DNA of 64,000 nt, from contig NZ_CP067395.1 of assembly GCF_017355525.1 (NCBI RefSeq), forward strand, positions 4,619,001 through 4,683,000. Direction: 5' to 3'. The notes beneath the pieces were generated by a model, which saw only the letters and a list, made by a program, of their open reading frames with translations, did no database searches and was not told the DNA's origin. Shown piece by piece: positions 50,249 through 52,833 of the stretch (its first letter is position 1; each line of letters begins with the position of its first letter). This DNA is from Lysobacter enzymogenes. Lineage in GTDB: Bacteria > Pseudomonadota > Gammaproteobacteria > Xanthomonadales > Xanthomonadaceae. The position numbers and the translations under genes were made by a program.

Positions 50249-50704
50249 ATGCAGCGAACCACGATCGACATGTTGCTGGGGCGGTTGGAAACGGCCCCGC
50301 ACGGCGAAGGCGCCACCGCGGCGCTGCTGGACGCCGAGCTGCAACGCTGCTGGCAACGGGTCCCGGGCATGCGCGCGCTGTGCGTCTCCACCGCCGACGG
50401 CCGCGCCCTGGCCGAACGCATCGACGGCGGCGCCGACGCGCGCCGGATCGCGGCGATGGCCAACTCCTTCCTGACCCTCGGCGAGACCCTGGCCGGCGAA
50501 ATGCAGCTCAGCCAGGCCGACTACGCCACCGTCTGCACCGCCCGCGGCAACCTGGTGCTGTTCCGCGTCCACGCCGCCAAGCCGCTGACCCTGCTGGCGC
50601 TGGCCGGCTCCGACACGCTGCTGGCCGCGCTGCTGGTGGCCGCGCGCGAATGCGCCGCGCGCATCGGCGCGGCGCTGCGCGACCCCGCGCCCGTCCGACC
50701 CTAG
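50249..50704 (+). CDS. Roadblock/LC7-like protein
   Basis: A 151-residue soluble protein. The core (about 25-140) has the roadblock/LC7 alternation: LLDAELQRCWQRVPGMRALCVSTADGRALAERI, then helix ARRIAAMANSFLTLGETLAGEMQL, and strands TVCTARGNLVLFRVHAAKPLTLLALAG followed by a final amphipathic helix. Such domains bind small Ras-like GTPases and act as GTPase-activating or scaffolding subunits (MglB, CvnB). First gene of a four-gene module with another roadblock-like protein, an unknown 332-residue protein and a GTPase. Confidence 0.7.
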   Translation: MQRTTIDMLLGRLETAPHGEGATAALLDAELQRCWQRVPGMRALCVSTADGRALAERIDGGADARRIAAMANSFLTLGETLAGEMQLSQADYATVCTARGNLVLFRVHAAKPLTLLALAGSDTLLAALLVAARECAARIGAALRDPAPVRP

Positions 50705-50809
50705 TTGTCCCGCCGCCCGACCGCCGACCCGCCGCGGCGGGCCGGCGCGCGGCCGCGGCATCCCCCCGCAAGGCCTCAGCCGTATCCCACACGCATCAAG
50801 GAGCTCGAG

Positions 50810-51169
50810 ATGTCGAAGTTGCAACTGGACGAACTCAACACCCTGGCCGGCTTCGTCGGCGCCGCCCTGGTCGACAGCGACAGCGGCATGGCGCTGGCCG
50901 CGATCGGCGGCGGCGGCATCGACCTGGAAGTGGCCGCCGCCGGCAATTCCGAAGTGGTCCGCTCCAAGCGCCGCGTCGCCCAGCAGCTCGGCCTCAACGA
51001 CACCATCGAGGACATCCTGATCAGCCTCGGCAAGCAGTACCACCTGATCCGCCCGCTGGAGAGCAACCCGACGCTGTTCCTGTACGTGGTGCTCGACCGC
51101 GGCCGCGCCAACCTGGCGATGGCCCGCCACGAGCTCAAGGCGTTCGAGAAGACCCTCGACTTCAAGTGA
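50810..51169 (+). CDS. Second roadblock/LC7-like protein
   Basis: A 119-residue protein starting at 50810 after AAGGAG. Roadblock-type strands and helix: LNTLAGFVGAALVDSDSGMALAAIG, EVVRSKRRVAQQLGLNDTIEDILISLGKQYHLIRPL and NPTLFLYVVLDRGRANLAMARHELKAFEKTLDF. It differs in length and sequence from the preceding protein, so this is not a simple duplication. In conservons the corresponding place is taken by CvnC (DUF742); here a second roadblock-like subunit is more likely. No transmembrane or signal sequence. Confidence 0.65.
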   Translation: MSKLQLDELNTLAGFVGAALVDSDSGMALAAIGGGGIDLEVAAAGNSEVVRSKRRVAQQLGLNDTIEDILISLGKQYHLIRPLESNPTLFLYVVLDRGRANLAMARHELKAFEKTLDFK

Positions 51170-51286
51170 GCGGACTTCAAGTGATCGGACCGCAGCGATG
51201 AGCCGACCGCGCGCGGCCCGCCGCCGCGGCGCTCGATGACCCGGCAATGCGCGGCCGCCCGGCCGCGCCACCGCCAGGAGGCATGG

Positions 51287-52285
51287 GTGGCATCCAAGCA
51301 GCGCTACGTGGTCGCCAGCGTCGACCTCGACAAATCCCGCGACGCGCGCCTGCGCGCCGCGCGCGAACTGCTCGCCGGCGAGCGCATCGAGGTGGAACTG
51401 CGGCGCTGGGACGGACGCACCGCCCAGGTGCTGGTGGTCGGCACCGAAACCAGCGCCAGCCGCATGGCGGTCGACACCGCCTTGCGCAGCGGCATCCCGG
51501 TGGTGCGCATCGGCCGGTTGCCGTGGGATCCCGGCAGCGTGCGTTCGCTCGATCTGTACGCCGAGCCGGACGAACTGTCGGCGTGCCTGCGCGAACGCCT
51601 GGACGTGGACGAGCCGCCGCCCGAGCGCGTCGCCGCGACCGATCCGGCCGCGGCGCCGTTCCTGCGCCAGCTGCTGGCCGCCGCGGACACCGGCGCGTCC
51701 GAAAACGGCGTGCGCCTGCTCGAACGCGGCCTGTTCCGGCTGGCGATCGATCTGGCCGGCGCGCGCCTGCACATGCTGCGGCGCATGCCGTACCCGGCGC
51801 TGATCGACGAGGCGCTGGCGCCGAACTGGTTCGTCACCGCGTTGTCGCCGCGCCGCTACGCCGAAGAATTCGAGCAGGACGTGATCGCGAGCTATCCGTT
51901 GGAATCGGTGCTGTGGGACATCGCCCTGGCGCACGAGGCGCCGATCGCCGACGTGCCGCCCGAACGGCCGCTGCGCCTGCGCGCGTGGCCGCTGCTGTCG
52001 GCCAACGAACTGCCGGTGCATTGGCTGCTGCCGCTGAGCTGCCTGCTCGAACGCGCCTGGCCGCTGCCACAACTGGCCCAGGCCACCGCCACCCCGGCGC
52101 TGGAACTCGAACGCATGTACGCCGCGGTGCTGGCCAGCGGGCTGGCCGACGCGCAGGCGCCGGCGGCGCCGGCGCGGCGCGCGGCCGATGCGCGCGCGCC
52201 CGGCCTGCTGCAGCGGCTGGCGCGCCGCTTCGGCTTGACCCTCGGGCAGGCAGTTGTCGGCAAGAACCAGGAACGCGGGCCATGA
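51287..52285 (+). CDS. Unknown 332-residue protein of the GTPase module
   Basis: The GTG at 51287 is chosen because AGGAGG (51276-51281) stands 5 nt before it; the ATG at 51236 in the same frame lacks a site. The N-terminal third (RYVVASVDLDKSRDARLRAARELL...VLVVGTETSASRMAVDTALRSGIPVVRIG) looks like a receiver-type or Rossmann-like alpha/beta domain. The C-terminal third (RLRAWPLLSANELPVHWLLPLSCLLERAWPLPQLAQATATPALELERMYAAVLASG) resembles a small winged-helix-like domain. No family recognised. It overlaps the GTPase gene by 4 nt (ATGA), so it is probably its effector or regulator. Confidence 0.65.
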   Translation: MASKQRYVVASVDLDKSRDARLRAARELLAGERIEVELRRWDGRTAQVLVVGTETSASRMAVDTALRSGIPVVRIGRLPWDPGSVRSLDLYAEPDELSACLRERLDVDEPPPERVAATDPAAAPFLRQLLAAADTGASENGVRLLERGLFRLAIDLAGARLHMLRRMPYPALIDEALAPNWFVTALSPRRYAEEFEQDVIASYPLESVLWDIALAHEAPIADVPPERPLRLRAWPLLSANELPVHWLLPLSCLLERAWPLPQLAQATATPALELERMYAAVLASGLADAQAPAAPARRAADARAPGLLQRLARRFGLTLGQAVVGKNQERGP

Positions 52286-52833
52286 CCGACTTGATCAAGC
52301 TGGCCTTCGTCGGCGACATGGGCGCCGGCAAGACCACCGCCATCCGCGCGATCTCCGACCGCGAGCCGATCAGCACCGAAATGCCGATCAGCCAGGGCGC
52401 GCTGGGCGAGAAGACCCACACCACCGTGGCGATGGACTACAGCACCATCGAACTCGACGACGGCGAACTGCTGCACGTCTACGGCGTGCCCGGCCAGCGT
52501 TATTTGGATTTCATGTGGCCGCTGGTGTGCGAAGGCGCGGTCGGCATCGTCGTGCTGGTCGCCGCCGACAGCGCCGACATGGTCGGCCAGGCCGACGCGC
52601 TGCTGCGCGACTTCGCCCGCATCGCCCCCGACGCCGCGTTCGCCGTCGGCGTCACCCGCGCCGACCTCGGCAGCGACTTCGCCCTGCTCGAATTCCGCGA
52701 CGCGCTCGGCCGCCGCGGCCATCGCTTGCCGATGGCGCGGCTGGACGCGCGCGACGCGGCGCAGGTCGAGACCTTGATCCGCATGCTGCTGTCGTATCGC
52801 TATGCGGAGGCGAAGGTCAACGCGGTGGCCTGA
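52282..52833 (+). CDS. Small Ras-like GTPase (COG2229 type)
   Basis: A 183-residue GTP-binding protein. The P-loop is GDMGAGKT (residues 11-18); the switch-I region has KTHTTVAMDYSTIEL; the G3 motif reads YGVPGQRYLDFMW in place of DxxGQ, which is usual for the COG2229/CvnD family (typical GTPGQ) and lacks the canonical Asp; G4 is TRAD (125-128) instead of NKxD. The variants suggest a diverged hydrolysis mechanism using roadblock partners. Last gene of the four-gene module. Confidence 0.85.
   Translation: MTDLIKLAFVGDMGAGKTTAIRAISDREPISTEMPISQGALGEKTHTTVAMDYSTIELDDGELLHVYGVPGQRYLDFMWPLVCEGAVGIVVLVAADSADMVGQADALLRDFARIAPDAAFAVGVTRADLGSDFALLEFRDALGRRGHRLPMARLDARDAAQVETLIRMLLSYRYAEAKVNAVA

Follow-up and report, generated by a model that had tools for sequence, protein, structure and literature searches.

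What kind of signalling system is encoded by four closely spaced genes in Lysobacter enzymogenes, and has that kind of system been seen before? The genes lie on the plus strand of contig NZ_CP067395.1, in a stretch of 64,000 nucleotides that we refer to as the window. In order they encode two roadblock/LC7 proteins (robA and robB), a 332-residue protein (P3) and a small GTPase (Table 1). The initial annotation had seen in them a conservon-like module and a candidate for an undescribed signalling system. The identity of the locus is now firm: the genes form a Group 3 MglA system. Modules of this kind occur in beta- and gammaproteobacteria and were already described in 2014, by sequence analysis, by Wuichet and Sogaard-Andersen (PMC4316618). 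As defined there, such systems comprise an MglA-like GTPase, one or two MglB proteins and an uncharacterised protein, part receiver-like and part winged-helix-like; the authors proposed a transcriptional output.

All four open reading frames (ORFs) were verified, together with their close spacing: 105 bp separate robA from robB and 117 bp robB from P3, while P3 and the GTPase gene overlap by 4 bases, as had been read from the sequence at the outset. The P3 start codon is GTG, preceded by AGGAGG. Because GC at third codon positions reaches 90-95% across the four frames, and substitutions in a comparison with four close relatives are commonest at third positions, the frames are real genes. When the genome was scanned as one contig of 5.95 Mb, two Robl_LC7 matches were found at E <= 0.01, both inside the cluster, and the window's GTPase had one match in its own genome. 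A promoter and terminator scan detected none.

The GTPase ties the locus to Group 3. It matches Pfam PF03029 with 38.1 bits (cut-off 27), and a single-sequence search of the PDB returned three MglA chains only at E <= 0.01 (E 0.004-0.005); in a search with the family profile, MglA ranks below many Rab-family proteins. The protein is a small Ras-like GTPase. The motifs picked out by the initial annotation are all present, and the full set of GDMGAGKT (G1), KTHTT (G2), YGVPGQ (G3), TRAD (G4) and LDAR (G5) agrees with the Group 3 motifs listed in PMC4316618. In a comparison of 70 rows (the window's and 69 from named loci), T47 and T48 of G2 are invariant (70/70), with threonine in place of the Group 1 arginine finger, as are the G, P, G and Q of G3 (70/70), where the second residue is T in 37 rows and V in 29 (GVPGQ in the window). 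The G4 sequence TRAD departs from [NT]KxD, lysine being present in 2 of 70 rows, and the D and R of G5 recur in 69 of 70. In a tree of 98 GTPases the window's copy joins seven others from its own genus and then, with support 95/98, belongs to a clade of 37 rows that includes Xanthomonas, Stenotrophomonas, Pseudoxanthomonas and Luteimonas. This tree left out Group 1, 2, 4 and 5 sequences and contains some long branches elsewhere; it groups the window's GTPase with copies from genera named for Group 3 in PMC4316618 (Xanthomonas, Stenotrophomonas).

Next to the GTPase lie two MglB homologues, in keeping with Group 3. That both small proteins are roadblock/LC7 proteins, as first proposed, is indicated at the sequence level by Pfam and profile matches, not by structure prediction. 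Against Robl_LC7, robB passes the cut-off of 23 with 25.5 bits and robA falls 0.1 bit below it with 22.9; the E. coli control gave no match. The robA family profile matches the PDB entries 7f8m (E 2.3e-20), CvnB5 (3leq, E 2.7e-12) and, weakly, MglB (3t1s, E 0.01), and the sole solved roadblock structure matched by the robB profile is 7yh1 (weak, E 0.028). Comparing the two profiles with each other gave a probability of 1.2%, a figure that carries no information with so few diverse rows for robB. D50 and G51 of robA are invariant in 17/17 aligned rows, an Asp-Gly pair reported in the MglB proteins of Groups 2-5 (PMC4316618), while robB carries Ser-Gly at this position. It is robB, moreover, that is far more conserved than its partner proteins: its identity to 14 aligned relatives is 49-90%, against only 19-30% for robA beyond its nearest kin and 30-46% for the GTPase.

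The remaining partner, P3, was said to have no recognised domain, and as a single sequence it indeed had no match in Pfam or NCBIfam at E 1. An AlphaFold2 model (mean pLDDT 84.6) predicts the receiver-like N-terminus typical of a Group 3 partner, and the fold lacks a conserved phospho-acceptor, which is absent from the window's own copy. At the C-terminal side we obtained weak matches only, so that of the receiver-like/winged-helix-like description in the initial annotation the first half stands, on the model, and the winged helix is weakly supported. No match to PATAN/DUF4388 (PF14332) was listed among 54 P3 members, and a search of 120 genomes of the phylum yielded no PATAN/DUF4388 members for comparison. 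Nearly every listed P3 ends in a low-confidence linker followed by a short basic hydrophobic stretch, GLLQRLARRFGL in the window and FFGKLRRKFGF in Acinetobacter, which by its sequence is basic and amphipathic.

These genes travel together. Among 60 related genomes the GTPase was found in 28 and robB in 21, and every robB carrier also has the GTPase (21/21). A single-sequence search recovers P3 in 12 of the 60, and profile iteration over 36 loci shows it adjoining most of the GTPases. A large protein database returned 16 P3 sequences by single sequence (the window's own included) and one more by profile (P0017), a small number because that search requires shared exact words; distant relatives were drawn from genome neighbourhoods instead. 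A robB profile found at least 515 relatives in named genomes, the best 80 of which were kept as loci. The full four-gene set lies within the fetched stretch at 65 of these best 80, including 11/11 from Xanthomonas, 9/12 from Stenotrophomonas and 34/42 from Acinetobacter, which contradicts the possibility that the four genes do not co-occur; the GTPase is present at 69. At the other 11, some robB genes lie at contig ends, some are extra copies whose genome carries a full set at another place (L152 and L129, for example), and others, for example two in Psychrobacter, have no full set among the best 80. The window's gene order is that of the 11/11 Xanthomonas and 9/12 Stenotrophomonas loci. Overall, robA-robB-P3-GTPase occurs in 28 full sets (and in 1 more where P3 is split in two), robB-P3-GTPase-robA in 27 (and in 2 more with a split P3), GTPase-robA-P3-robB in 5 and P3-GTPase-robA-robB in 2; all but the third of these orders are mutual rotations. 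Flanking gene families recur within Acinetobacter, and Xanthomonas and Stenotrophomonas also have such families in common (14 of 150 families), but a single family of the 150 bridges the two sets. The flank proteins considered, from 78 named loci, gave no match to the window's flanks. Across the class, robB occurs in only 4 of 151 genomes, this one included.

Several Acinetobacter genomes hold two robB loci (L121/L134, L123/L142, L129/L152 and L149/L164), some of them full sets and some without a nearby GTPase, recalling the "orphan" mglB reported in Snodgrassella. The module also exists in a distinct form in other genomes of the window's own genus (L057, L058, L059 and L060), with a GTPase far from the window's clade and the order P3-GTPase-robA-robB. 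Around the cluster itself, the upstream plus-strand genes at 47916-48902 and about 48925-49887 resemble tandem paralogues by eye, with the common stretches ARACYLxRGP, YEPG and YRYLKLxRLGA and no Pfam match above cut-off. The convergent minus-strand neighbour at 52928-53926 matches DUF2268 (predicted Zn-dependent protease) with 23.2 bits, under the cut-off of 23.6. Farther out, the long ORFs at 42585-45989 (plus strand) and 57270-60320 (minus strand) resemble TonB-dependent receptors in their translations.

Table 1. Features of the four-gene cluster, in window coordinates.
Feature	Coordinates	Strand	Basis
robA, 151 aa, roadblock/LC7 protein, MglB/CvnB-like	50249..50704	+	Pfam; family profile vs PDB
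robA Asp-Gly pair D50-G51	50396-50401	+	alignment
robB, strongly conserved second roadblock protein of 119 aa with no Asp-Gly pair	50810..51169	+	Pfam Robl_LC7
P3, 332 aa, Group 3 "conserved protein of unknown function"	51287..52285	+	homologues adjoin most GTPases examined
P3 residues 1-110, predicted receiver-like domain without conserved phospho-acceptor Asp	51287..51616	+	model
P3 residues 124-215, alpha/beta middle domain	51656..51931	+	no clear structural counterpart
P3 residues 240-287, winged-helix-like region	52004..52147	+	weak matches
P3 residues 306-317, basic amphipathic C-terminal helix, candidate membrane-targeting tail (GLLQRLARRFGL)	52202..52237	+	
Group 3 MglA-like small GTPase, 183 aa	52282..52833	+	motifs, tree

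No feature was found that would place the cluster outside Group 3: the motif set, the two coupled MglB homologues, the receiver-like partner and the occurrence in Xanthomonas and Stenotrophomonas all agree. Two features, the P3 tail helix and the strong conservation of robB, are absent from the Group 3 description in the accessible text of PMC4316618 and are new here; the predicted pseudo-receiver without a conserved phospho-acceptor and the uncharged, weakly supported winged-helix-like part are likewise new. The comparison with the actinobacterial conservons (CvnA-D), which form Group 2 and include a histidine kinase and CvnC (PMC4316618, PMC13343842), holds at the level of a small GTPase paired with a roadblock protein in a four-gene cluster, and no further. 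It could be argued that the module is a true conservon homologue that has lost its kinase, and the match of robA to CvnB5 and the pairing itself would agree with this. We nevertheless regard such an origin as very improbable. A Pfam scan found no histidine kinase (CvnA) among the four genes or four nearby ORFs, and CvnC (DUF742) had no match in those eight window proteins and does not figure in the list of 20 families matched by 54 relatives of P3. The window has P3 and two roadblock proteins, its G4 motif is TRAD where Group 2 has NxFD, and the fetched relatives are gammaproteobacterial with a P3 partner of their own, although the tree held no CvnD sequence.

A closer functional parallel is offered by Myxococcus, in which MglA works with the GTPase-activating protein (GAP) MglB, with its paralogue MglC and with RomR, a receiver protein that binds MglC through a C-terminal helix (PMC12719032). 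The GTPase, robA, robB and P3 can be overlaid on these four, P3 sharing with RomR a receiver, a linker and a C-terminal helix. This is an analogy of parts: the window's GTPase is not of Group 1, having no intrinsic arginine finger in G2 and GxPGQ rather than TVPGQ, its genes are clustered, and P3, unlike RomR, adds alpha/beta and winged-helix-like parts and lacks the phospho-acceptor in the window's copy. On balance we lean, if only slightly, towards a model in which the module is a membrane-tethered spatial switch of this MglA/MglB/MglC/RomR-like type and not a transcription regulator. In this model, the GTPase would cycle between GDP and GTP, and robA, with its Asp-Gly pair, would act as an MglB-type GAP that sets the catalytic glutamine Q72. 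The second roadblock protein, robB, would be non-catalytic and serve in docking or scaffolding, like MglC, while P3, in the role that RomR has in Myxococcus, would be an adaptor for reading or positioning the switch, its C-terminal helix anchoring the complex to the inner membrane with a probably polarised distribution. Since no kinase gene adjoins the module and the window's P3 has no phospho-acceptor, input would come by protein or membrane binding rather than phosphorylation, and the output would probably be the placement of a surface machine, for example type IV pili. The tail, the predicted pseudo-receiver and the uncharged winged-helix-like part point to a membrane-associated adaptor rather than to a role in transcription.

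The mean best hydrophobic moment of the P3 tails is 0.73, compared with 0.566 for shuffled tails (sd 0.017, maximum 0.608, 200 rounds) and 0.51 for blocks taken elsewhere in these proteins. By a test of moment, charge, bulky residues and absence of internal proline, 49 of 53 distinct P3 tails passed, as against 12 of 265 flanking Acinetobacter proteins, 10/67 robA, 1/46 robB, 0/60 GTPases and, for shuffled tails, a mean of 12.5/53 (maximum 20). The tail may resemble the membrane-targeting tails of MinD and FtsA. Several points weigh against the switch model, beginning with this test, which was fixed only after the tails had been inspected, on 53 tails that share kinship and control proteins that are all from Acinetobacter. 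The modelled helix (residues 307-314) has a pLDDT of only about 57-65, and such a basic helix might bind another protein in place of the membrane. An aspartate in columns 52-54 of 8 to 13 of 53 P3 rows suggests that some members may keep a phospho-acceptor. The GTPase has no match in 8 of 20 genomes of the genus examined, and together with the distinct version in that genus this suggests patchy inheritance or exchange. In the open-licence literature we saw no biochemistry or localisation for the module. Finally, whether or not they carry the module, 59 of 60 relatives have a match to the pilT family (above the cut-off in 58), and the sole genome without one also lacks the GTPase; with so high a base rate pilT co-occurrence is uninformative, and a link to type IV pili on these grounds was rejected.

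If the P3 helix bound a roadblock protein, as residues 371-420 of RomR bind MglC with a KD of 2.6 nM (PMC12719032), the complex could be cytosolic or placed by another polar protein, and both the presence of two roadblock proteins and the exceptional conservation of robB would be accounted for. We think this rather doubtful, given that by eye hydrophobic, mostly basic P3 C-termini persist in six systems without detectable robB, and that the RomR residues include two glutamates facing a positively charged cleft (PMC12719032), whereas the P3 helix is basic. The strict tail test tempers the first of these arguments and the membrane model with it, as only 3/6 of these systems pass; in two of the six (L036 and L063) the partner ORF was assigned by position and not listed by the P3 profile, and in one locus (L062) there is, by eye, a possible further roadblock-like ORF. 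The 2014 suggestion that the GTPase state controls P3 as a DNA-binding receiver-like/winged-helix regulator (PMC4316618) draws some strength from HTH_40 matches in 5 of 54 P3 members (best E 5.8e-4) and from ArsR-type proteins matched by profile at E 0.009 or weaker, both of which keep DNA binding possible and count against the membrane-tethered switch. The winged-helix-like part (residues 238-287) is, however, close to neutral, with a net charge of -2 in the window and a family mean of +0.4 (range -4 to 4), and its recognition-like helix is about 0. The top profile match is to the N-terminal portion of a methyltransferase (7pg7) and the top fold match is to FAM91A1, by name neither a DNA-binding regulator, and the basic tail suggests membrane or protein docking. 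That P3 is a transcription regulator seems unlikely to us.

For the output, one guide is Snodgrassella, of a different lineage from the window's and compared with Neisseria in PMC11112851, where its mgl locus is put in group 3 and described as having one mglA and three mglB, one an orphan; we liken it to the module by that description only. In one strain, a point mutation in the orphan mglB accompanies altered spreading and gut competition (PMC11112851), a phenotype that by analogy fits a surface-machine output of the spatial switch. Among the titles listed in our survey of the open-licence literature, no experimental work on Group 3 systems was recognised beyond PMC4316618 and PMC11112851; the MglA named in a Stenotrophomonas paper (PMC10806987) is a synonym for a type VI secretion gene and a different protein. 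Extending the switch model to the whole group is more speculative, and we hold it improbable: Group 3 modules might be self-contained membrane-bound spatial switches of beta- and gammaproteobacteria that position a surface machine, much as a Min oscillator built on a Ras-type GTPase would. P3 would then join an inactive receiver to a winged-helix-like part that binds protein and to a MinD-like membrane tail, and robB would act as a pattern-making scaffold.

Ras-like switches have been well studied in Myxococcus and Streptomyces, but none of the papers surveyed assigns a molecular function to the Group 3 branch, which we encountered in Xanthomonas, Stenotrophomonas and Lysobacter as well as in many Acinetobacter. 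The tail, the predicted pseudo-receiver and the conserved robB yield definite, testable predictions, with the very high conservation of robB providing a concrete entry point. If P3 is indeed a membrane-tethered adaptor, protein placement in these bacteria would deserve study before transcripts.
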